A DNA stretch of 23,499 bases from a virus, in the IMG/VR virus record IMGVR_UViG_3300043464_001719, positions 1 through 23,499 of that record. The stretch is one strand, 5' to 3'. Shown piece by piece: positions 3,231 through 23,499 of this stretch (the first letter of the stretch is position 1; every line of letters starts with the position of its first letter). The notes beneath the pieces are model-generated. The model was not told where the DNA came from, did no database searches, and worked only from the letters and a program-made list of their open reading frames with translations. The position numbers and the translations under genes were made by a program.

Positions 3231-4988
3231 ATGAAACTCATTACCGAAGAAGCTCAAGATGTGAAAATGCTTACTGAAAGCGTAAATGGTAAGAAGAAAT
3301 TGTATATTGAAGGAGTTTTCTGTCAGGCCGAAACTAAAAATAGAAATGGAAGAGTTTATCCGATCCAGACTCTTAATAATGCCGTAAATTATTATATTGA
3401 GAACTTTGTTAAGCAAAATAGGGCCGTAGGAGAACTTGGCCATCCCTGTCTAAGCGGTGATGCAAAACTTCTATCGGTTAGTGATGGTTGGAAGCATATT
3501 AAAGATTGTAACAAAAGTGAACGGGTTTATACTCTTAATCCAGAAACAAAGGAAGTAGAAATTCATCCCATTGATGAAGTTGTGATAACACATCATAAGG
3601 GTGTTATGTATAACTTAAAAAATAGAGGAATTAATACAAAAATTACCCCAGACCATCGTTTTCTAATTTACAACTCAAGAAATAAAATTCAATATAAATT
3701 TGTAACAGCTCAAGAAATTTTTGATGACCTAAATGGTGATAACTCATTAGCTAAATGGTTTATTCCTAAGGCTTCTTTGGGAGTAACTAATACTATTTCT
3801 CCAGATGAATATATTATCCCAAACTCTAAAACTATTAAAGTAATAAACGATAAAACCAAAAAATATCTAGATGATTTATCTATTGAATTTAAAACTTTTT
3901 CGGCTTTTATGGGAATTTACTTATCTGAGGGTTGGTGTAAAAAACAAGTAAATGAATCTTACAGTATTGGTGTATGTCAAAATTGTGGCCACAAAGCTGA
4001 TAAAATTTCAGAAATTCTCTATTCTATGACTGGATTAGAATGGCATGAATCAACTTACGATGGTAAAACTATTTGGAACTGCTTTGACAGAAGACTGGGT
4101 GAATATTTATTACAATTTGGTAATTGTTATAATAAATTTATTCCTCGAGATTTTATTTCCTCACTTGATTCCGAAACTGCCAGAATTTTTATTGAATATT
4201 TTGTGTTGGGAGATGGAAGAGGAAAACTTCAAGAGTCTTATAGTAAATGTGATGCCTTCAGCACATCTAAACGACTTATAGATGACATTGCACAAGTGGC
4301 AATTATTGCTGGATTCGGTGTGAGTCTTTACGAAGAGATTTGTAAAGAAGATTATATCTTTGCAGGAAGAATTATTAAAGCAGAAAATAAATCGCCTCTT
4401 TATTTCTGCACATTTTTAACCACACAAGGAGTCTATTTGGATAAAAGATTTATGCAAATGGTGCAAGAAGAGTGGGATGATTCTGTGTATTGCATCCAAG
4501 TGAAAAATACTAATTTTATGGTTGAGCAAAATGGATACAATTATTGGACAGGAAACTGTTCACCGCCCATTAACTATGATAGGGTATCCCATAAGATTAC
4601 ATCTCTCCAAAGAGAAGGTAATAATTTTATAGGAAAGGCTGTAATTGTTAATACCCCAATGGGAAACATCGTAAAAAACCTCCACGAAGAAGGTGTTGTT
4701 TTCGGTGTTTCCTCAAGAGCAGTTGGTTCTTTAAGATCCACAAATGAAGGAGTAAACATCGTAGGCGATGACCTAATGTTCTCAACTGTCGCAGATATTG
4801 TTCACGATCCTTCCTGTACTACTGCATTTGTTAATGGAATTATGGAAGGCAAAGAATGGTACTTTGATGTTACAAAGAAAGAATGGTTACTTGAGAATAC
4901 CAAAAAGACTATCAACAAGTTAGTTCAATCTCGCCAATTAGAAGAAAAGAAATTAGACCTATTCAATCATTTCTTAAATAACATCTGA
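3231..4988 (+). CDS. 21: Prohead core protease gp21, interrupted by an intein
   Basis: This is the T4-type prohead maturation protease, which cleaves scaffold and capsid proteins inside the assembled prohead. The 585-residue precursor is two extein parts around a 370-residue intein. Extein 1 (residues 1-72) ends in AVGELGHP, with the catalytic His71. Extein 2 (443-585) starts CSPPINYDRVSH and carries GVSSRAVG, the catalytic Ser region at 494-495, and an Asp-rich stretch (VADIVHDP) that may hold the third residue. Removing the intein gives 215 residues, close to the 212 of T4 gp21, and restores a continuous ELGHPCSPP...DRVSHKIT reading typical of the family. It is followed by gp22 and gp23 in T4 order. 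The protease should be inactive until splicing, because the insertion separates His from Ser. The call is firm; splicing efficiency is unknown. Confidence 0.93.
   Translation: MKLITEEAQDVKMLTESVNGKKKLYIEGVFCQAETKNRNGRVYPIQTLNNAVNYYIENFVKQNRAVGELGHPCLSGDAKLLSVSDGWKHIKDCNKSERVYTLNPETKEVEIHPIDEVVITHHKGVMYNLKNRGINTKITPDHRFLIYNSRNKIQYKFVTAQEIFDDLNGDNSLAKWFIPKASLGVTNTISPDEYIIPNSKTIKVINDKTKKYLDDLSIEFKTFSAFMGIYLSEGWCKKQVNESYSIGVCQNCGHKADKISEILYSMTGLEWHESTYDGKTIWNCFDRRLGEYLLQFGNCYNKFIPRDFISSLDSETARIFIEYFVLGDGRGKLQESYSKCDAFSTSKRLIDDIAQVAIIAGFGVSLYEEICKEDYIFAGRIIKAENKSPLYFCTFLTTQGVYLDKRFMQMVQEEWDDSVYCIQVKNTNFMVEQNGYNYWTGNCSPPINYDRVSHKITSLQREGNNFIGKAVIVNTPMGNIVKNLHEEGVVFGVSSRAVGSLRSTNEGVNIVGDDLMFSTVADIVHDPSCTTAFVNGIMEGKEWYFDVTKKEWLLENTKKTINKLVQSRQLEEKKLDLFNHFLNNI
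3447..4556 (+). mobile_element. Intein with LAGLIDADG homing endonuclease in gp21
   Basis: The 370-residue insert starts at Cys (precursor residue 73) and ends TGN before Cys443. Intein landmarks, numbered within the insert: Cys1 with CLSGDAKLLS (block A), TPDH at 67-70 (block B, TxxH), two LAGLIDADG-type helices FMGIYLSEG at 154-162 and FIEYFVLGDG at 248-257, VYCIQVKNTNFMV at about 347-359 (block F), and the terminal Asn370 followed by Cys+1 (block G). The endonuclease would cut intein-less gp21 alleles and drive spread of the element. The penultimate residue is Gly rather than the usual His, which normally assists Asn cyclisation; inteins lacking this His are known and some splice. The insert is markedly more AT-rich than the structural genes upstream. 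Confidence 0.92.
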
Positions 4989-5002
4989 AAACAATTACTT
5001 TA

Positions 5003-5009
5003 CTAAATA
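5003..5009 (+). promoter_or_regulatory. Late-promoter-like box CTAAATA before gp22
   Basis: The same CTAAATA as before gp21, within the matching context ACTAAATAA, 37 bases upstream of the gp22 ATG and in the short gap after gp21. It fits a T4 late-type promoter giving extra expression of the abundant scaffold protein. Confidence 0.5.
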
Positions 5010-5039
5010 AACATAGATTACCAATAAAAAGATTTCAAT

Positions 5040-6149
5040 ATGGATGCCAAGAATTCTCAATCAAAAACTGCAGTGAATAGCGGTGCTAAGCCCGCTGAAC
5101 CAATGCAAAAGTTGTCTGGCAATATTCCTCCTGGTCAAACTGTAGGTTGGGAAGACTTGGGCGGTCCCACTCCTGAAAACTATAAGAATGATGATGATTC
5201 TGCAAAGCTTAAGGATCCATCCGCTCGCCTTTCTGCAGTAAAAGATGTAGTCAACCGCAAGGCAAAGTCTGCCGAACCCATGCCCAAGCTGGCATCCGGT
5301 GCAGTTAAAGAATCTCTAGATGATGAAGACGAAGAAGTTCTAGAAGATGAGGAACTAGAGGATGAAGAGCTAGAAAATGAAGATGAAGAAGTAGAAGATG
5401 AGCTAGAAGAAGAAATCTATGTTGAAGACTTCAATGTAGATGAGGATGTAAATGCTCTTATGGAAGGTGAAGAACTTTCTGAAGAGTTCCAAGAAAAGGC
5501 TCGCACCATTTTTGAGGCTGCTCTTAAGACTAGAGCAAATCAACTCAAAGAAGCTCTTGAAGTCAAGTATGAAATCGCTCTTAAGGAAGAAGTAAAAGCA
5601 ATCAAAGAAGAACTTGAAGAAAGAGTAGATGCTTATCTGGATTATGTGTCAGAAGAATGGCTGGAGGAAAACCGTCTTCAAGTGGAGACCGGTATCAAGG
5701 TTAAAGTAACCGAATCTTTCTTAGAAGGTCTTAAGGGACTTTGTGAACAACATTATGTGGAAATGCCTGAAGAAAAGTATGACGTTCTGGAAGGAATGGT
5801 AGAAAAACTAGATGAAATGGAAGAAAAACTCAACGAGCAAATTGAAAAGAATGTTCGTCTAAACCAAAGACTCTCTGAGTCGGTTGCAGATAGAATTCTT
5901 GATGATGTTTCTGAAGGATTAGCCGTCACTCAGAAGGAGAAGCTCGCCACACTTGCTGAAAGTGTTGAGTTTGAAGGTGAACAAACTTATAGGAATAAGT
6001 TGGAAACTCTTAGGGAATCTTATTTCCCAACTCATAGAGCAACCAGGAGCACAGTAACCGATCTGTCAGAAGCCTACGAATATCAAGAGCCAGTCTCTAA
6101 TTCTATGGAAGGCTATCTTAAGGTGGCTAATATGTTCTCCAAAATCTGA
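5040..6149 (+). CDS. 22: Prohead scaffolding core protein gp22
   Basis: A 369-residue, extremely acidic and helical protein between gp21 and gp23, the position of the T4 internal scaffold gp22. It forms the core around which the capsid assembles and is degraded by gp21. The N-terminal ~95 residues are Pro/Ser/Lys-rich and contain a repeated phrase (KPAEPMQKLSG near 17-27, KSAEPMPKLASG near 76-87). Residues ~90-130 are almost entirely Glu/Asp. From ~145 to ~300 there is long heptad-like helix (EEKLNEQIEKN). The C-terminus ends in the short conserved tail LKVANMFSKI. Many potential gp21 sites of the (L/I)-x-E type are present. The N-terminal acidic part may do the work of separate T4 small core proteins (67, 68), which are not seen here; that is inference. 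Confidence 0.85.
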   Translation: MDAKNSQSKTAVNSGAKPAEPMQKLSGNIPPGQTVGWEDLGGPTPENYKNDDDSAKLKDPSARLSAVKDVVNRKAKSAEPMPKLASGAVKESLDDEDEEVLEDEELEDEELENEDEEVEDELEEEIYVEDFNVDEDVNALMEGEELSEEFQEKARTIFEAALKTRANQLKEALEVKYEIALKEEVKAIKEELEERVDAYLDYVSEEWLEENRLQVETGIKVKVTESFLEGLKGLCEQHYVEMPEEKYDVLEGMVEKLDEMEEKLNEQIEKNVRLNQRLSESVADRILDDVSEGLAVTQKEKLATLAESVEFEGEQTYRNKLETLRESYFPTHRATRSTVTDLSEAYEYQEPVSNSMEGYLKVANMFSKI

Positions 6150-6194
6150 TTTTAATATTACTCAAATTCAAAACTACAAAAAGGTAAAAATCAA

Positions 6195-7604
6195 ATGCAA
6201 ATGTTGAATCAAGAACAATTGCTAGAAAAGTGGGCTCCTCTGCTTAACTATGACGGTCTAGATCCTATCAAGGATTCTCACCGCAAAAAGGTTACTGCTC
6301 AACTTCTAGAAAATCAAGAAATTTCTCTCCGCGAAGATCAAAGCTTTTCAAATGGTACTCTATTTGAAACAACCTACGGTAATGCCGCTGGTGCTACTGG
6401 TGGTTTTAGTGGTAGTGCTAATGCAGCCGGCCCTGTTGCCGGTTTTGACCCTGTACTTATCTCACTGATTCGTCGGTCAATGCCTAATCTGGTCGCATAT
6501 GATCTAGCTGGCGTTCAACCGATGACCGGTCCTACCGGCCTAATCTTTGCAATGCGCTCACGCTATAAGGATCAATTCGGCACCGAAACATTCTACAACG
6601 AAGTAGATACCACTTTCTCTGGCCAAGATAGCGGCTTCAATGTTAATGCCGGGTTTACCAATGCTGCAGTTGGTATGGGTACAACCAATAGCAACAATGC
6701 TGGCTTTAACCCTGGCCTGTTGAATCCCGTTGGTACTGCATCTTCTACCGCCTATCAAGTCGGTCAAGGTATGCGTACTGGTGATGCAGAAGCCCTTGGT
6801 TATGCTGCTGGCGACCAATTCAACGAAATGAGCTTCTCCATTGAGAAGGTTCTTGTTGAGGCCAAGAGCCGTGCCCTGAAGGCCGAATATACTCTTGAAC
6901 TTGCTCAAGATCTTAAGGCCATTCACGGTGCTAGTGCCGAAGCTGAACTTGCCAACATTCTCTCTACTGAAATTCTAACTGAAATCAACCGCGAAGTTAT
7001 TCGTACAATCTATAAGGTTGCCGAACAGGGTGCTGCCGTAAATGTTGCTACTCCTGGTATCTTTGACCTTGATGTTGATTCCAATGGTCGTTGGTCTGTT
7101 GAGAAGTTCAAAGGTCTTCTGTTCCAAATTGAGCGCGATGCCAATGCTATTGATCAACGTACTCGTCGCGGAAAGGGTAATGTTATCATGTGCTCTGCCG
7201 ACGTAGCCTCTGCGCTTACTATGGCTGGTGTACTTGACTATACTCCCGCTCTTAATGCTAACCTTAATGTTGATGATACCGGTAATACCTTTGCTGGTGT
7301 TCTTATGGGTAAATGGCGTGTTTATATTGATCCCTATTCTGCTAACGTTAGCGCCGATCAATATTATGTGGTAGGTTATAAGGGATCCAGTCCATTTGAC
7401 GCTGGCTTGTTCTATGCGCCATATGTGCCTCTACAAATGGTTCGTGCCGTAGGTCAGGACACATTTACTCCTCGTATCGGGTTTAAGACTCGCTACGGTT
7501 TGGTTGCTAATCCCTTCGCTGAAGGTACTGAACAAGGTCTAGGTAGACTACAGATTAACTCCAATCGTTACTACCGCCGCGTCCGCGTGGCCAACTTAAT
7601 GTGA
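6195..7604 (+). CDS. 23: Major capsid protein gp23
   Basis: The 469-residue major head protein (521 in T4). Conserved signatures include WAPLLNYDGLDPIKDS near the N-terminus, LLENQE, FDPVLISLIRRSMPNLVAYD, GVQPMTGPTGLIFAMRSRY and the C-terminal FTPRIGFKTRYGLVANPFAEG, all typical of the T4/cyanophage gp23 family. The N-terminal ~55 residues are the expected propeptide; LFETT near residue 56 matches the gp21 cleavage pattern and a Gly/Ala-rich linker follows. A purine-rich AAAAAGG lies about 10 bases before the ATG. Codon use is less AT-rich than its neighbours, as often seen for very highly expressed capsid genes. A strong terminator closes the unit. Spacing to gp22 is 45 bases, without a clear late box of the kind seen before gp21. 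Confidence 0.96.
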   Translation: MQMLNQEQLLEKWAPLLNYDGLDPIKDSHRKKVTAQLLENQEISLREDQSFSNGTLFETTYGNAAGATGGFSGSANAAGPVAGFDPVLISLIRRSMPNLVAYDLAGVQPMTGPTGLIFAMRSRYKDQFGTETFYNEVDTTFSGQDSGFNVNAGFTNAAVGMGTTNSNNAGFNPGLLNPVGTASSTAYQVGQGMRTGDAEALGYAAGDQFNEMSFSIEKVLVEAKSRALKAEYTLELAQDLKAIHGASAEAELANILSTEILTEINREVIRTIYKVAEQGAAVNVATPGIFDLDVDSNGRWSVEKFKGLLFQIERDANAIDQRTRRGKGNVIMCSADVASALTMAGVLDYTPALNANLNVDDTGNTFAGVLMGKWRVYIDPYSANVSADQYYVVGYKGSSPFDAGLFYAPYVPLQMVRAVGQDTFTPRIGFKTRYGLVANPFAEGTEQGLGRLQINSNRYYRRVRVANLM

Positions 7605-7652: not shown

Positions 7653-8435
7653 ATTGGCTATCAGCTTTTCTACATTTATACTTCTTATGGTGTTTCCTGT
7701 TACCAGAAGCAACCGAATACATCTTACTTCTACTTAATCCATTTTCTAAACAATAATCAGATAAATTTACAACAAACTCTTCAACACCATCGGGATTTAT
7801 AACAATCCATTCTTTTTGTTTTGATTCAATATTTCTTTTTAATACATCTTCTCTTAAATTATACTCTCTAAGTTTCTGTTTAGTTTCTTCTTTTGGTATT
7901 CGCCCTCTTGATTTATCTCCTATTTTTCTTTTATGTCCATCTGATTTTGGTTACCCTTATGTGCCTCACTTATTTTACGTTTTACTGTATCATTATGCTT
8001 TCTGCCAGTACCAAGCATTCTTAAAAGTGCTTTTGTTTCGTCACTATGAGTTTTACCATAAAATCCATTATCACTTCCAATTCTTTTCTCTGGCCTATTG
8101 GCAATAAAAATATTCATAAGAATGCCACATTCATCAAATCCTTTGCGGCCATATTTAAGAATTTCTTGCTCTTCTAAAATATAAGCAGCTTCTTCATTCA
8201 TTCCCTCACGTATCTTAATAACAACGGGCTCAATTCCAGCAGCTCTAAGATTCCTAATATATCCACCAAGCCTCTTATTGTGCGAATAATTGTTCCTGGC
8301 GCTAAGATGTTGATAGCACCTCCATTTTTTACCCTTTCCAATATAAAAAGGAGACCCACTTAATGGATTAATAAGATGGTAGACGTAATAGTCAGATCTA
8401 ACATCATAAACACGTTCATCATTTTTCTGAAACAT
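7651..8435 (-). pseudogene. GIY-YIG homing endonuclease, frameshifted
   Basis: Reading from 8435 leftward, the first 171 codons encode a GIY-YIG nuclease domain (YYVYHLINP near 16-24, SPFYIGKG near 28-35, a Glu-rich helix EEAAYILEEQEILKYG near 81-96 with the likely metal-binding Glu). NUMOD3-type DNA-binding repeats follow (GSDNGFYGKTHSDETK, GTGRKHNDTVKRKISEAH) until a stop at 7920. In another frame the NUMOD3 pattern continues at once (GDKSRGRIPKEETKQKL) and ends in a DNA-binding module of the Seg type (WIVINPDG, NLSDYCLENGLS, YKCRKADSQ) with a stop at 7651. Adding one base at the A5 run (T5 at 7923-7927 on +) would restore 261 residues. It could be real decay, an assembly error, or -1 slippage. 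It overlaps the upstream endonuclease gene by 17 bases. Confidence 0.8.
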
Positions 8436-9933
8436 AATTCAACCCAAAACACAAACTACCACAATCAAATATCTTATTAAAGCCCATCTCTCGGGCTTTT
8501 TCATACTCGGTACAATCATAAGCGCCAATAAGTTTATTCTGGAACTTCATGCGATTATGACGAACCAAATAATTCTTATCAACGTAATAATACCCAGGTT
8601 TATTAACACGTTTCAACTCAAACCCGTTCTTAAAATAAACATTCCCGTTAGAGTACCGCCTGTCAGCATAAGAAACAATAGATCCCGAATACTCATGCCT
8701 AAAATAAGACAGCAATTTACTAAAACCACCAACAACATTAAGACCACCAGTATTACAGAATCTCACTAATTCCCACTCATAATTCTTATTAAATCTAGAC
8801 TTATTGAAGGTCATTAAACATACTAAATTGCCATCATATTCTAGGTCAAGTTTAATTCCAGACTTATCTTCGCCTTGAATGTGATTATCATTCAGAAACT
8901 TATTCTTACTATCAATATCCACATCAACAACATTACATTTACGGGCATAAATTCTTTCGTTAATACCTAACTTACTTTTAAGAATTGACTTAACAATATT
9001 CTGCCTATAGTTCCATTCATCGCTAAAAACATGAATCAATTGAATGTCCTGTTTTTCGCAATCAAGAGTTTTTGATAGGTGATAGTTTGGGCCTTTAATT
9101 AAACTTTCACTTTCAGCCCAAGGTTTATAAGAATGACTATAAAGCCCATTGTATTCAATGGCCAGATTATGTTTCGGCAAATAAATATCAAGTTCTCGTC
9201 CATTAAGAACCGAACGATTAGAAGTCAAAATCTCATCAGAGTATATTTCTTCAATAAAATCAACAATTTCCTGCTCTTCACCACTGACTTTATTAATGGT
9301 TCTTTCATAAGAGTTTGGCGCTCTTCTTTCAATACCGTGATACACAAGCCATCTTGAAACATATCCCTTTGAAGTATTAAGACTCTCGGCAATAGCCCCG
9401 CAAGTCAGTCCAGAGTTGTATAGATTCTCAAGTTTTTCTTTATCATTAAAGATTTCGGTAGCAGCCGCATTTCTTCTTCTTGCATCAACCAGATTATCAA
9501 TATTATGAATCTTGAGCCACTTTTTAACAGGAACATGTGACACACCCAATTCTTCACCAATAGTCTCAATGGCTTTTTTAAAAACTATTCTCTGCTCAAA
9601 TAACCATTCTCTATCGGAAAGTTTCGCCAGAGCATCATCCGAAATCTTGGATGCTCTTCTATGACATTCCTCATTAAAATAATCACTAAACCCTTTTTCT
9701 GCCAATCTATTAATACTAGCTCTTTTACCACACCCGCATTTACAATAAGGCAGTTGCCCTTCTGATAGATCATTCAACAAAACATAAGCTCTCTGCTTTA
9801 GTTTTAGACATTCATAATAAGAATCTAAAAAAGAAGTCTTATCTTCAATCTCCTTTCTGTAATCTTTATTGGAGGCAATTTTCATAAATGCCCGTCCTTC
9901 CCAATTGTTCTGTATTAATTGTCTAAGATTCAT
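8419..9933 (-). CDS. Free-standing homing endonuclease, PD-(D/E)xK/Vsr-like
   Basis: A 504-residue DNA-binding nuclease. The N-terminal part has a Cys cluster (YCKCGCG at 63-69, EECHR near 89-93) suggesting a zinc finger. Two helix-turn-helix-like segments follow (AIETIGEELGVSHVPVKKWL near 121-140, TCGAIAESLNTSKGYVSRWL near 177-196). The nuclease core then reads RELDIYLPKHNLAIEYNG (near 246-263), with Glu247, Asp249 and Glu260, and later YHLSKTLDC and LIHVFSDEW (near 284-307), giving a His and an Asp. This order fits the Vsr-like EDxHD group of phage homing endonucleases. It is oriented against its neighbours between gp23 and the glycosyltransferase, the usual placement of a free-standing homing gene. 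Its target, probably a nearby conserved gene of rival phages, cannot be read from the sequence. Confidence 0.8.
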   Translation of the reverse strand: MNLRQLIQNNWEGRAFMKIASNKDYRKEIEDKTSFLDSYYECLKLKQRAYVLLNDLSEGQLPYCKCGCGKRASINRLAEKGFSDYFNEECHRRASKISDDALAKLSDREWLFEQRIVFKKAIETIGEELGVSHVPVKKWLKIHNIDNLVDARRRNAAATEIFNDKEKLENLYNSGLTCGAIAESLNTSKGYVSRWLVYHGIERRAPNSYERTINKVSGEEQEIVDFIEEIYSDEILTSNRSVLNGRELDIYLPKHNLAIEYNGLYSHSYKPWAESESLIKGPNYHLSKTLDCEKQDIQLIHVFSDEWNYRQNIVKSILKSKLGINERIYARKCNVVDVDIDSKNKFLNDNHIQGEDKSGIKLDLEYDGNLVCLMTFNKSRFNKNYEWELVRFCNTGGLNVVGGFSKLLSYFRHEYSGSIVSYADRRYSNGNVYFKNGFELKRVNKPGYYYVDKNYLVRHNRMKFQNKLIGAYDCTEYEKAREMGFNKIFDCGSLCFGLNYVSEK

Positions 9934-12111: not shown

Positions 12112-12873
12112 TTACACTAAATTAGAAAATAGGATTTGACTCCAACGAGAAACTAACATATCGGCATATTCCTGCCTTGACGGAGGATTTGATTGATGAT
12201 CATTATTCTCGTAAAATCCTAGTGACCAGGCATCATTAAGTTCCACAAGACAATACTGATTCAGATCAGGTCTCCATCCAATATCAATCGTGTATGCACC
12301 AGGAGCCCCGATTGCTTCCAAATCTTTCATAATGTTAATAACCAATTCAGAATCCGGTAGAGGATTTATTACTTGTTTGTCATCATATCTCGACCATCCC
12401 AGAATTTTGCCGCCACCAATTGAGTCTCGTATATAAAAGCGAAATTCAGCCTCAAAGGGTACAGGCTCAGAAATCCAAACTGGTGTGTCATCAGAAATTA
12501 GACCGGGCATCTCCAACTCGATTTGCTCCTTTATATTACCAGTGAACAACTTTATGAAAATTGGCTTTACAAATTCTTCAGTAGATGCCTCACCGTAAGT
12601 TCCGAGTCTGATAGATCTCATAAGATATTTGTCTAAATTACCACCATATCCATATGAAAAGTCTTCTGGTAACACCAAATTGACATGTTGGCTATATGCC
12701 TGAGCAAACTCTACCGAACCAACAGGAACAAACTGTGATATGGATGTTTTCTGGTCTAACTGTGAAATATCACCGAAAGAGCAGTACCTAATAGGATAAT
12801 TCGAAAAGCTACATGCAACTTTTTCGGTTTGTAGTGTGCCTCCAGATTGTAGAAGAAAAATGGGATCTTTCAT
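12112..12873 (-). CDS. ATP-grasp domain protein (R2K-like clade)
   Basis: A 253-residue ATP-grasp-fold protein, a family that uses ATP to join a carboxylate to an amine or thiol. Visible elements: FVKPIFIKLFTG near 101-112 with the lysines expected to contact ATP; VWISEPVPFEAEFRFYI near 132-148 with Glu136, Glu143 and Arg145; GAYTIDIGW near 192-200 with Asp197; and LVELNDAWSLGFY near 209-221, where Glu211, Asn213 and Asp214 should bind Mg. This order (E-P-V-x-F-x-x-E-x-R, then D-x-G, then V-E-x-N-D-x-x-S-L-G) is that of the R2K clade found in phages and bacteria. Its N-terminal part varies and may select the substrate. A role in peptide tagging or protein modification is proposed for relatives; the substrate here is unknown. 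Confidence 0.75.
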   Translation of the reverse strand: MKDPIFLLQSGGTLQTEKVACSFSNYPIRYCSFGDISQLDQKTSISQFVPVGSVEFAQAYSQHVNLVLPEDFSYGYGGNLDKYLMRSIRLGTYGEASTEEFVKPIFIKLFTGNIKEQIELEMPGLISDDTPVWISEPVPFEAEFRFYIRDSIGGGKILGWSRYDDKQVINPLPDSELVINIMKDLEAIGAPGAYTIDIGWRPDLNQYCLVELNDAWSLGFYENNDHQSNPPSRQEYADMLVSRWSQILFSNLV

Positions 12874-14682: not shown

Positions 14683-15165
14683 TTATTTCGTACTATTATA
14701 AAACTCATAGGCTCTTACAGTTTGAATGACTTCTCGGGTAGCGTTTGAGTTTTTTGCAACACAATAGCGAACACTCGCATCCTTATCTCGGGCAAGAACT
14801 GTTAGAGCTTCTGGTGAAGTGTTGGGGTTGTATGCAACTTCCCAGCGAACATTAAAGCACTCATCTCTAGCAAGAAGTGTTAGAGTTTCCGGAGGAGTGT
14901 TGGGGTTGTCTGCAACTCTCCAGCGAACACCCCATTCCTCATCTCGGGCAAGAATTGTTAGAGTTTCTGGTGGTGTGTTGAGGTTTTTTGCAACATAACA
15001 GCGAACACTAGAATTCTTATCTCGGGCAAGGAGTGTTAGAGTTTCTGGTGAAGTGTTGGGATTGGATGCAACCCCCCTGCGAACAGTAAAATACTCATCT
15101 CGGGCAAGAAGTGTTAGGATTTCTGTTGGTGTGTTGTGTTCTGAGGCGAGTTCAAATTTGTTCAT
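14683..15165 (-). CDS. Alpha-solenoid protein of 26-residue repeats (LRV/HEAT-like)
   Basis: 160 residues made almost entirely of a tandem repeat of exactly 26 residues. One unit is NTPPETLTLLARDE followed by a variable pair, VRW-x-VA and two to three residues ending N-P. Five units are clear, plus a degenerate start (MNKFELASEHNTPTEILTLL) and cap. The pattern of Pro, Leu and 'V-R-x-x-V-A-x-N-P' is that of leucine-rich-repeat-variant/HEAT-type superhelical proteins, which act as binding scaffolds. No enzymatic domain is attached. A second member starts at 23294 on the other strand. Variation concentrates at the two positions after 'RD' and around 'VR', likely the exposed binding face. The partner is unknown. 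Confidence 0.8.
   Translation of the reverse strand: MNKFELASEHNTPTEILTLLARDEYFTVRRGVASNPNTSPETLTLLARDKNSSVRCYVAKNLNTPPETLTILARDEEWGVRWRVADNPNTPPETLTLLARDECFNVRWEVAYNPNTSPEALTVLARDKDASVRYCVAKNSNATREVIQTVRAYEFYNSTK
14720..15125 (-). repeat. 78-bp tandem DNA repeats in the solenoid gene
   Basis: The segment gttagag recurs at 14801, 14879, 14957, 15035 and, slightly changed, 15113, always 78 bases apart. The coding repeats are well conserved at DNA level, so unit number could change by recombination. One 45-base stretch (14936-14980) is identical, inverted, to 23362-23406. Confidence 0.9.
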
Positions 15166-15219: not shown

Positions 15220-16305
15220 CTATGTGCCACTTTTTAGATCGGCTGCTAAAAAGTTAAATAGCCTATCTGATAGATGCTCAAATAGCATTAGTTTCTTTTC
15301 ATTTTCAGTATTGTAGCGTCTACCAAGAAGATTCGTAAGAAAATCAATATCTTCTTGTTTAATGGACATTTTTATTTCAACGGTTGGTGTAAGATCAATT
15401 AAAATCTTTTTTGCCACAATATTGATTGATTTATCGCCAATATCTTTGATTTTTTGATGAACCCTACACTCTTCTTCAAACTTATCAAAAAGGTCACTTT
15501 GTCTTTTATGTTCAAACTGTAAATTCCAGGCAATTAAACCGATATTACTAATATAAGATTCTTTAAGACTCGTAGCCGGGTCATTAAACATCGGCATATC
15601 CGTATATTTTACAGTTGTCTTTGTAAACCTAGGATCACTTTCAAAAATCTCATCAAATTTATTCTTTTCTTCTCTAATTGTTGATGAAATATTAATTTTA
15701 CTTAACTTACTTGCAGCTAAACAAGGATATACAACATTAAAAAAGTCATCTACTACATTCTTTGGCATATATGCCATTTCATCTAGAAATACTGCATCAA
15801 GAGAAATTCCATGGAGAGAATTATGAGTTACTGCCCCAGCTCTGGAACCATTCTTAAAGCTTATAGTATAGCTGTTATTTATGACATCTCCGGGTTTTAG
15901 AAAGTCTGGTACACTATCATAGAGCGATTTAAACCTTTCCAATAGCGCGAGCGTGCTACTATTATTAGACGACTTCACTACAACGGTTTTCCCGCTGTTA
16001 AAAATTACAAAATGTAAAAGTTGTAGAAGCCCGCATAGTGTTTTTGAAGAATGTCTGGGGGCTTTGATAATATTGAATCGGTTGTTATAAAAATTATTGA
16101 TAATGGCTTCCTGATAGTCATATAATTTAAAATTAACGGGGGTTGCCTCAGACGGTGTGAAAATTTTTACATAGTTATTAATAAAATATACCGGGTCTGT
16201 TGCACACTTTTCAATTTCTTCTAGTTGTTTTTGTGGCTCAATTTGTGCAATTTGAGTCTTAAGTTCTTGTAGCTCTTTATATGTTAAGTTGTCTAGATTA
16301 ATCAT
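15220..16305 (-). CDS. Terminase large subunit-like ATPase without nuclease domain
   Basis: 361 residues resembling the N-terminal ATPase half of T4-type terminase gp17, which powers DNA packaging. Signs: DPVYFINNYVKI, the adenine-binding-type LYDYQEAII, a Walker A-like APRHSSKT, KTVVVKSSNN, SVPDFLKPGDVI, ISFKNGSRAGAV, Walker B LDAVFLDEMAYMP, then INISSTIRE, the usual motif III position, and IAWNLQFE. T4 gp17 has ~610 residues with a C-terminal nuclease; here the homology ends near the domain boundary and about 75 unrelated residues follow. In Walker A the usual Gly before Lys is Ser (SSKT for GKT). The gene lies in the - strand block of small and DNA-metabolism genes, not beside head genes. 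It may be a duplicated, repurposed or decaying packaging ATPase. The true gp17 is not in the window. Confidence 0.75.
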   Translation of the reverse strand: MINLDNLTYKELQELKTQIAQIEPQKQLEEIEKCATDPVYFINNYVKIFTPSEATPVNFKLYDYQEAIINNFYNNRFNIIKAPRHSSKTLCGLLQLLHFVIFNSGKTVVVKSSNNSSTLALLERFKSLYDSVPDFLKPGDVINNSYTISFKNGSRAGAVTHNSLHGISLDAVFLDEMAYMPKNVVDDFFNVVYPCLAASKLSKINISSTIREEKNKFDEIFESDPRFTKTTVKYTDMPMFNDPATSLKESYISNIGLIAWNLQFEHKRQSDLFDKFEEECRVHQKIKDIGDKSINIVAKKILIDLTPTVEIKMSIKQEDIDFLTNLLGRRYNTENEKKLMLFEHLSDRLFNFLAADLKSGT

Positions 16306-16524: not shown

Positions 16525-16845
16525 TTATTTGATCATGTGACTTTGTAATCTCCTTATTGCTACATCATTTAGAGAAAAAGTCCAAGATTGACCTTGAATG
16601 GATTCATTTCCATACTTCCAGATTGTATCTTCAGATAAATGTTGAGTTAGATTGTAACTTTTGTTATTGATGTGACCATTAATATGACGCAATGCCTGTT
16701 CAATATTAACAAACCAACCTTGATAATTACAGTCATCATAAAGGTGGCATCTTTTATCTTCCGATTCGTATAAAAATAATTTATAGTTTACTCTCACAAA
16801 GAGATCTTCAAGAGTTTTAATTTGTTCGGCTGTTGGGTTATTCAT
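16525..16845 (-). CDS. Hypothetical protein, 106 aa
   Basis: 106 residues, MNNPTAEQIKTLEDLFVRVN, then an aromatic and acidic middle (HLYDDCNYQGWFVNIEQALRHI) and a C-terminal WTFSLNDVAIRRLQSHM. It is soluble, with no membrane segment and no recognisable catalytic motif. It is placed 16 bases after the DNA ligase gene in the same transcription direction. I do not recognise a family. Confidence 0.6.
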   Translation of the reverse strand: MNNPTAEQIKTLEDLFVRVNYKLFLYESEDKRCHLYDDCNYQGWFVNIEQALRHINGHINNKSYNLTQHLSEDTIWKYGNESIQGQSWTFSLNDVAIRRLQSHMIK

Positions 16846-16861
16846 TTATGTTCTCAATTAA

Positions 16862-17734
16862 TTATACATCATCCTCGTCGCGAAAGCCAAGAAAAACAGG
16901 ATGTCTCGGCAAATCCTTAACACCTTGGGGGAAGTATTTATATTTGACAAGTTTCCCAAGGTATTCATTCTTATTGCTCCAAATCTCATTCCGCATTAAA
17001 TCATTTAGACCAGAACCGACTCCAAATACCTGACCTTCTTTATTTTTAACGATTAGCGTGCCTGCAGTATTTGCTCCAACTAATCCAGAAATTGAGGATG
17101 ATCTTTTGGTTCTACCAAAGGCATCTTTTTGGACCTCATTCTCATTGTGCATCTTTTCTTCAATATCAATAAGAATTGCCTCATCATCTAAAAATCTCTT
17201 TACCTTAAGAAGAATATTATCTCTTACTGTGGATCGTCCAAACTTATATGTCCCGAATGGATCTCTTAACATTACTCCTTCATATCCACCTTCAAGGCAA
17301 ATTATTTCATATGAATCAAGTTCTTCTTGATTATTAACAGTTACTCCAGTTAACAGTTTATATTGACAGGTATTTGGAAAAGTTGGAAAGTTAAGAATTC
17401 TTAAGTAATACGGAAGAATGTCTTCTTGATCGGGATCAACATAATCAAAAAGCCATACCTTAAAATCGGGTTCACCCTCAATACTCATTACTCCGCTGCT
17501 AGATGATTGAAATGTATCACCAACTGTAATTTCTCCATCTACACCATCGGTTAGAGTTTCACTTAAAACTCGTTGAATGTAATTGTTTCTAATGGGTTTA
17601 AATGTGCGAGATACTACAACACCATTAACCATAAGAAATCTAATTCCGTCAATCTTTGGAGATGCAATATATGGAAATTTGGCTTTAGTTTCGTCAAAAT
17701 TTCCAGCGAGTAATGGCTTTTTAATTTGTGGCAT
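16862..17734 (-). CDS. ATP-dependent DNA ligase
   Basis: A 290-residue small ligase that seals nicks in DNA. Nucleotidyltransferase motifs: SPKIDGIRF at 25-33 with the adenylated Lys27 (motif I, KxDGxR), VSRTFKP near 41-47, DGVDGEITVG near 63-72 with the motif III-type Glu68, EGVMLRD at 152-158 (motif IV) and LLKVKRF near 175-181 (motif V). After ~184 comes an OB-fold-sized C-terminal domain with LVKYKYFPQGVKDLPRHPVF near the end (motif VI-like basic region). It lacks the extra N-terminal DNA-binding domain of T4 gp30 (487 residues), so it belongs to the minimal phage/bacterial type. The start overlaps the preceding gene by 14 bases. It probably acts in phage replication and repair with the nearby UvsY/UvsW system. 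Confidence 0.92.
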   Translation of the reverse strand: MPQIKKPLLAGNFDETKAKFPYIASPKIDGIRFLMVNGVVVSRTFKPIRNNYIQRVLSETLTDGVDGEITVGDTFQSSSSGVMSIEGEPDFKVWLFDYVDPDQEDILPYYLRILNFPTFPNTCQYKLLTGVTVNNQEELDSYEIICLEGGYEGVMLRDPFGTYKFGRSTVRDNILLKVKRFLDDEAILIDIEEKMHNENEVQKDAFGRTKRSSSISGLVGANTAGTLIVKNKEGQVFGVGSGLNDLMRNEIWSNKNEYLGKLVKYKYFPQGVKDLPRHPVFLGFRDEDDV

Positions 17735-19973: not shown

Positions 19974-20002
19974 ATCATAACACACCCTCTTCCATTTGTC
20001 AA
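19974..20002 (-). promoter_or_regulatory. Strong sigma70-type promoter for the - strand block
   Basis: On the - strand TTGACA (20002-19997), 17 bases, TATGAT (19979-19974): a perfect -35, ideal spacing and a 5/6 -10. Transcription would begin near 19967 and enter the 98-residue gene at 19921. This is the expected form of a phage early promoter read by the unmodified host polymerase. Confidence 0.85.
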
Positions 20003-23293: not shown

Positions 23294-23499
23294 ATGACAA
23301 CCGAAACAAACCCTCTTAGTAATCTTTCGTTGCAAGAACGGAAAGACCTTGCGGAAAACTCCAACACACCACCAGAAACTCTAACAATTCTTGCCCGAGA
23401 TGAGGATAGGGATGTTCGCCGTAATGTTGCAAACAACCCCAACACACCACCAGAAGCCCTAACAATTCTTGCCCAAGATGAGGATTTGAATGTTCGCTG
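23294..23499 (+). CDS. Second 26-residue-repeat solenoid protein (3' partial)
   Basis: The frame starts at ATG 23294 and runs off the window after 68 codons. After a short N-terminal helix (TNPLSNLSLQERKDLAE) it enters the same 26-residue repeat as the gene at 14683-15165: NTPPETLTILARDED, VRRNVANNPNTPPEALTIL and so on. The DNA repeat step is again 78 bases. A 45-base stretch (23362-23406) is identical to part of the other gene. It is led by its own strong promoter; the leader is only about 13 bases and has no clear Shine-Dalgarno site. The full length and number of repeats are not visible. Confidence 0.8.
   Translation, partial: MTTETNPLSNLSLQERKDLAENSNTPPETLTILARDEDRDVRRNVANNPNTPPEALTILAQDEDLNVR

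Follow-up and report, generated by a model that had tools for sequence, protein, structure and literature searches.

A gp17-type ATPase domain without a nuclease

Phages normally carry one copy of the large terminase, a machine of two domains. The locus described here raises the question of what a gene encoding only the ATPase domain of this machine contributes to a phage, and whether such a gene might still be the packaging terminase. It is located on a linear virus contig from IMG/VR (23.5 kb), and this whole stretch of analyzed DNA is called the window below. A sequence-only reading of the window had proposed that the protein carries a gp17-type ATPase domain and ends where the nuclease should begin, that its gene lies outside the head module on the opposite strand, and that it may be a duplicated packaging motor rather than the packaging terminase itself. 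The relevant features are as follows.

3231 to 7604, plus strand: head module with gp21 (with intein), gp22, and gp23 (Pfam, PHROG)
15220 to 16305, minus strand: ATPase-only gp17 paralog, 361 amino acids, ATG to stop (PHROG, Pfam, Foldseek, VIA-align)
15223 to 15492, minus strand: C-terminal tail, residues 272 to 361, low-confidence model, found only in the window clade
15517 to 15567, minus strand: final ATPase-domain helices, residues 247 to 263, aligned to T4 335 to 351 near the hinge
15670 to 15687, minus strand: motif III region SSTIRE, residues 207 to 212, without the Pro-x-Gly of gp17
15778 to 15795, minus strand: Walker B, residues 171 to 176, with Asp175/Glu176 equivalent to T4 255/256
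16039 to 16059, minus strand: Walker A PRHSSKT, residues 83 to 89, T4 161 to 167
16525 to 16845, minus strand: small ORF between ligase and paralog, no Pfam match, PHROG matches all at E >0.06
16862 to 17734, minus strand: DNA ligase upstream of the paralog, a linkage seen in two clades

The protein matches PHROG 5989 (“terminase large subunit”) at E 5e-41 and Pfam Terminase_6N at E 7e-4, the latter with 19.7 bits, which is 2.3 bits under the curated cut-off of 22. Matches to it occur in 2,184 of 50,697 phage records, and among the matches listed, the best are mostly annotated gp17 genes with ~29 to 35% identity across window residues ~15 to 265. The AlphaFold2 model has a mean pLDDT of 77, and its ATPase part is mostly above 90. 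The top Foldseek match of this model is the ATPase domain of T4 gp17 (E 1.2e-19), and VIA-align places model residues 22 to 271 on T4 gp17 residues 101 to 360 with a Z score of 26.8 and an rmsd of 2.2 over 245 residues (25% identity). The window protein is a complete gp17-type ATPase domain without the nuclease, and the fold assignment made from the letters is borne out by both profile and structure comparisons.

The T4 domain (PDB 2o0h, 2o0j, and 3cpe) has the same fold over residues 101 to 360, and its ATP-site residues are kept in the window protein. In contrast, the first ~100 residues, the hinge, and the nuclease of T4 gp17 have no counterpart. Other differences are the replacement of Gly165 by Ser, Gln163 by His, and both Pro288 and Gly290, and the addition of a 90-amino-acid tail. 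Cyanophage gp17 proteins (S-PM2, P-TIM68, and others, including L186 of contig G015) share ~32 to 35% identity with window residues ~15 to 265, but they are ~550 amino acids long, possess the nuclease half, and fall on the opposite side of the tree described below. No match to Terminase_6C, the C-terminal RNase H-like nuclease, was found anywhere in the window. The protein has the gp17 ATPase fold, yet it is not a gp17 terminase, because the nuclease domain and two tested sequence features ([ST]PxG and the Walker A glycine) are absent.

The claim that the protein stops where the nuclease should begin is correct for the ATPase domain, which ends near residue 271, and in the protein an unrelated tail of ~90 amino acids follows this domain. 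From ~residue 272 onward, the pLDDT is 31 to 57 in blocks of ten, and a search with the tail against 50,697 phage records returned no match at E 1. A split intein in the tail was considered and rejected, as local alignments to four intein N-parts are no better than those of shuffles (63, 968, 774, and 169 of 1,000 as good, or 6 to 97%). Kinship with the L440 protein, which is primase-like by inspection and 38% identical over part of the tail, was likewise set aside. This match had been fetched through a short exact pattern, and we treated it as chance because 284 and 162 of 1,000 shuffles do as well once the shared 9-mer is masked.

A full-length gp17 exists alongside the paralog

Contig G015 is nearly identical to the window (96.4% nucleotide identity over 6,234 bases, 95.9% over 919, and 90.3% over a further 3,294). 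It carries one full gp17, a 567-amino-acid frame with Terminase_6C, which is located upstream of head genes, unlike the window paralog. G015 ends before the ATPase-only locus, and contig G005 joins that locus to gp23. Furthermore, a full gp17 and an ATPase-only gene are both present in contigs G007, G009, G010, and G011. Judged from these contigs, the window gene is not the packaging terminase, because the near-identical contig has an intact gp17 and four others hold both genes. The sequence-only reading had reached the same view and had named two findings that would overturn it, namely the lack of any other terminase and a frameshift or intron leading to a nuclease domain. The first is answered by the gp17 of G015; as for the second, no intein and no nuclease part were found for the window gene. 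That both genes occur in the window species is read from overlapping close relatives on separate contigs rather than from one molecule.

When the 16 contigs with ATPase-only genes were searched for Terminase_6C, four matched, once each. The missing nuclease match in the remaining contigs says little because these are mostly short fragments. Additional “terminase” matches to phrog_2 in G001, G010, and G022 are, by inspection, PhoH-like proteins and UvsW-type helicases and were rejected as paralogs.

Another explanation is that the packaging gp17 is itself split or interrupted by an intron, such that the window gene supplies its N-terminal part and the remainder is provided in trans. Five loci from the same searches have a gp17 with a split-intein cut at the same ATPase/nuclease junction (L220 4932 to 7579, L236 4929 to 7574, L303 4947 to 8151, L383 3110 to 5766, and L436 4414 to 7086). 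In these loci, an N-half with a short intein part precedes a C-half ORF, and four of the five have between the two an ORF that is endonuclease-like by inspection. A tail-sheath-like ORF comes after the C-half in L220, L383, and L436. These halves, which we take to be of the AceL-TerL type, resemble the window gene in that the N-half ORF ends at the domain junction. However, in all five the N-half retains [ST]PxG and terminates in an intein N-part, and the nuclease half comes after it; the window protein has none of these traits. Its tail resembles their intein N-parts no more than shuffles do, there is no nuclease half in the window, and a close relative carries an intact gp17. By these comparisons, the split-gene explanation is already contradicted, and we give it almost no credence.

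Other interruptions and endonuclease-like genes were observed as well. The gp17 of L436 is cut additionally near the P-loop. The full gp17 frames of G009, G010, and G011 (704 amino acids) and of phage B23 (W01:152228-153934, a 900-amino-acid frame) have an insertion in the Walker A region that is probably an intein in the P-loop. In the window, the gp21 prohead protease (3231 to 4988) is interrupted by an intein (Intein_splicing, E 2e-7), and two homing-endonuclease-like genes are located directly after gp23 (7920 to 9933, minus strand).

ATPase-only proteins form an old family

We collected 15 distinct closed ATPase-only proteins, consisting of three from the window clade, seven from a 249-aa clade, and five psbA-linked members. 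The window protein belongs among them by its closed frame and non-nuclease tail. Their contigs are largely cyanophage-like, as indicated by psbA genes and the nearest named matches. An unrooted tree of ATPase domains, which the sequence-only reading had suggested, was built from 60 rows and 236 columns after full gp17 proteins had been thinned at ~75% identity and the partial L004 and L043 had been left out. All 15 ATPase-only proteins, with the window protein among them, lie on one side of a branch with support of 95/96 that is present in 96% of bootstrap trees, and all 45 gp17 rows (39 distinct) lie on the opposite side. The branches of two ATPase-only clades are long (1.4 and 1.6 changes per column), such that some mutual attraction is possible. 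The shared loss of Pro-x-Gly supports the grouping, although those columns were included in the tree.

A recent duplication of the resident gp17 was rejected for each of two clades. Constraining the window clade to join the gp17 of the G015 type lowers the likelihood by 32.2 log units (p-AU 0.010), and constraining the 249-aa clade to join a resident gp17 lowers it by 32.8 (p-AU 0.003). The description of the gene as a duplicated packaging motor is therefore right in that it is a paralog distinct from the terminase and wrong if taken to mean a recent copy of the resident gene. We are nearly certain, from sequence and tree evidence, that the window gene is a member of an ATPase-only family of gp17 paralogs on T4-like phage contigs, and that this family is old and arose once.

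What is new here is this ATPase-only lineage of gp17. A literature search of open-licence papers returned no description of an ATPase-only gp17 paralog, and no named phage was found to have a close ATPase-only relative. Specifically, the listed best matches of four members are gp17 genes, except for mislabelled or unannotated rows. Of the 13 loci recovered in a scan of GTDB genomes, none contains an intact ATPase-only frame that belongs to this family. A comparison of three family members with PADLOC models of anti-phage defense proteins gave no match at E 0.1. The shortened forms gp17'A, gp17'B, and gp17'' of T4, for which no function is assigned in AF158101, bear some likeness to the paralog. 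However, they are the opposite of it, as they lack the N-terminus, keep the C-terminal part, and are products of the gp17 gene itself.

ATP-site residues are kept and coupling residues are lost

In T4 numbering, the window protein keeps the adenine-contacting Gln143 along with Arg162, Lys166, Thr167, Asp255, and Glu256, and also the Ser/Thr of motif III. Its Walker A motif reads PRHSSKT compared to SRQLGKT in T4, such that His replaces Gln163 and Ser replaces Gly165. Both the serine in place of the Walker A glycine and the intact Walker B had been noticed in the sequence-only reading, and both are present. The three orthologs that cover Walker A (L002, L003, and L004) read PRQSSKT. The Gly-to-Ser change is, by this comparison, a trait of the window clade only, and the Gln-to-His change is the window's alone. 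The serine is not a family trait, given that 3 of the 15 ATPase-only proteins have Ser at position 165 and the other 12 have Gly, as do 38 of 39 gp17 proteins.

Across the family, Gln143, Arg162, Lys166, and Asp255 are present in all 15 members and Glu256 in 14, with Asp in the remaining one. These counts and those that follow use the 39 distinct gp17 proteins, as six of the 45 tree rows duplicate named phages. Downstream of motif III, Pro288 is found in no ATPase-only protein compared to 38 of 39 gp17 proteins, and Gly290 in none compared to 39 of 39. Lys192 is kept in one member and Arg245 in two, and each is at least 95% conserved in gp17, with no exception for Arg245. Among the 208 closed frames from all loci, [ST]PxG is present in 185 of the 187 that are at least 480 amino acids long. 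Of the 21 shorter frames, 5 have the motif, namely those of the split-intein loci described above, and 16 do not; by our count, 15 of these 16 are the ATPase-only proteins and 1 is a fragment from L436.

The gene is under selection and has an accessory distribution

Orthologs in L002 (91%) and in L003/L201 (77%) are full-length, with a gene order as in the window. The dN/dS values of the window gene are 0.041/0.270 (0.15) relative to L002 and 0.150/0.501 (0.30) relative to L201, in frames that take in four codons ahead of the ATG. The values for the tail are 0.040/0.198 and 0.166/0.820 (0.20 in both comparisons). The ratio relative to L201 is somewhat above that of the neighboring ligase (0.112/0.523) and above the ratios of both controls, tail tube and uvsY. 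These values indicate purifying selection on both the ATPase part and the tail.

This result bears on whether the gene is what remains of a former gp17 gene in decay, as the missing nuclease, the altered Walker A, and the patchy distribution could suggest. Ratios of 0.15 to 0.30, with intact frames in three full-length orthologs, contradict this explanation already, and the derived traits are common to the family across old branches. We therefore regard decay as very improbable.

The distribution was also examined through gp23. Of 14 contigs with gp23 relatives, 12 have a terminase-profile match and none has an ATPase-only gene. Two extra terminase-profile matches in G022, which belongs to this set, are other ATPases. 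The closest cultured phages to the one in the window have cyanobacterial hosts; of these, Synechococcus phage B23, the nearest by gp23 (82%), has one gp17 and no ATPase-only gene. By this pattern, the ATPase-only gene is accessory and patchily distributed rather than core.

Genomic setting and a possible role in DNA metabolism

As the sequence-only reading had stated, the gene lies outside the head module and on the opposite strand, where it is accompanied by the DNA ligase and small ORFs, whereas gp21, gp22, and gp23 are at 3231 to 7604 on the plus strand. In the window clade, a same-strand ligase gene is found upstream in four of four loci at 1.2 to 1.5 kb, centre to centre. The same arrangement is seen in five of seven loci of the 249-aa clade at 1.1 to 6.5 kb, one of which has only a 51-amino-acid ligase piece. 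In all five psbA-type loci, a psbA-family gene is located within 2.1 kb on the same strand. L210 and L194, which represent different clades, have a block of four further genes in common, and a small downstream gene is common to L190 and five of the seven loci of the 249-aa clade.

These neighborhoods are relevant to the possibility that the gp17 fold serves as an ATP-driven switch that acts with neighboring ligase or recombination genes and has no role in packaging. The recurrent ligase linkage in two clades speaks for such a role in DNA metabolism, as do the operon-like overlaps of a few bases between the ATPase-only gene and its neighbors in several loci, the RNase-T-type exonuclease near the paralog, and the retention of ATP-site residues together with the loss of the gp17-specific Arg245, Lys192, Pro288, and Gly290. 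However, no ligase accompanies the psbA-linked members in the stretches covered, an additional DNA-binding domain was not recognized, and the linkage may reflect merely a shared gene block. We consider this possible, if doubtful, and nearly as likely as the packaging-partner role discussed below.

Early expression of the paralog is assumed from its neighbors because the promoter scan of the window is uninformative (32 sites compared to 25.4 in shuffles, standard deviation 5.0). One site that matches 11 of 12 positions and has an extended -10 is located at 20002 to 19974 on the minus strand, ahead of the minus-strand block.

Several other observations were made at these loci. In L004 (247 to 6739), the tube-uvsY-uvsW and ligase-paralog blocks share a strand, whereas they are on opposite strands in the window, L002, and L003; this difference reflects an inversion or rearrangement. 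In L218 (3057 to 6319), the ATPase-only gene is flanked by two psbA/psbD-family genes, of which the nearest is a weak match (24%, probably psbD) and the other is a psbA ORF on the other side. The window regions 14683 to 15165, right after the paralog, and 23294 to 23497, on the other strand, carry the same leucine-rich-variant repeat NTPPETLTxLARDE. An ATP-grasp protein of the R2K clade is encoded at 12112 to 12873 (Pfam E 1.9e-22).

A candidate partner of the packaging motor

Our preferred reading, which we hold tentatively, is that the protein binds ATP and acts as a partner of the packaging motor or portal. It would contact the packaging apparatus, at either the gp17 ring or the portal, via the final helices of the ATPase domain, which it retains. 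It would be unable to translocate DNA because it has no hinge, no nuclease/translocation domain, and no motif III Pro-x-Gly. The protein might then be a regulatory or interfering partner that slows or times packaging by its own phage or spoils that of a co-infecting relative. In the window clade, the altered Walker A suggests an ATP-binding form in which hydrolysis is weak or absent.

Several properties of T4 gp17 are consistent with this proposal. In the available excerpts of one study (PMC8589836), the Q163A variant, altered at the position occupied by His in the window protein, has impaired ATP hydrolysis, yet it attaches to heads as the wild type does and joins the pentamer, and packaging is impaired when it is mixed in. 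Excerpts of another study (PMC9958956) describe an isolated ATPase domain that retains its own activity and loses translocation. They also indicate that portal-contacting residues appear within a helix-loop-helix associated with the hinge and that a peptide of that sequence inhibits packaging. In both models of family members, two helices located at the place of this helix-loop-helix form the end of the ATPase domain. The portal-site argument draws on T4 biochemistry at ~25% identity and should be weighed as such.

Three considerations qualify the packaging-partner proposal. First, by the residue counts above, a dead-subunit role cannot be the general role of the family because the Walker A glycine is present in 12 of the 15 proteins. 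Second, the loss of Arg245 in 13 of 15 members raises the possibility that contacts within the ring have also been lost, which counts against such a partner. Third, the neighbors are ligase or psbA genes and small ORFs rather than head genes, which also counts against it, and the ligase synteny fits DNA metabolism equally. Taken as one statement, the identity of the protein, its family, and the packaging-partner mechanism together fall somewhat short of an even chance.

Avs-type bacterial immune sensors recognize the large terminase of phages. The protein might instead be a decoy, a terminase-like ATPase that occupies such a sensor. Two points speak for a decoy: the model aligns to the terminase of phage PhiV-1 in its complex with Avs3 (chain 8dgc_E, Z score of 19.9 over 239 residues), and the gene is accessory rather than core. 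However, large terminases in general have this fold, and a terminase mimic could just as well trigger the sensor. We consider a decoy role improbable. A broader and rather speculative view, which we think unlikely, is that T4-like cyanophages have a dedicated family of translocation-dead terminase ATPases, with genes located away from the head genes, that insert into their own or a competitor's motors or occupy terminase-sensing immune receptors, and would thereby serve in co-infection as a protein-level means of control or a weapon.

Implications

For genome annotation, a match to the ATPase domain alone is an unsafe marker for a terminase, as it can come from short genes such as this one, which are located elsewhere in the genome and are distinct from the packaging gene. 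A conserved lineage that has only the engine, maintained beside the full motor, amounts to a natural experiment on the lone ATPase domain. The lineage offers a concrete candidate for a factor that regulates the motor, interferes with packaging, or acts in counter-defense in cyanophages. The selection retained on such an old ATPase-only copy points to a second job for a packaging-motor domain.
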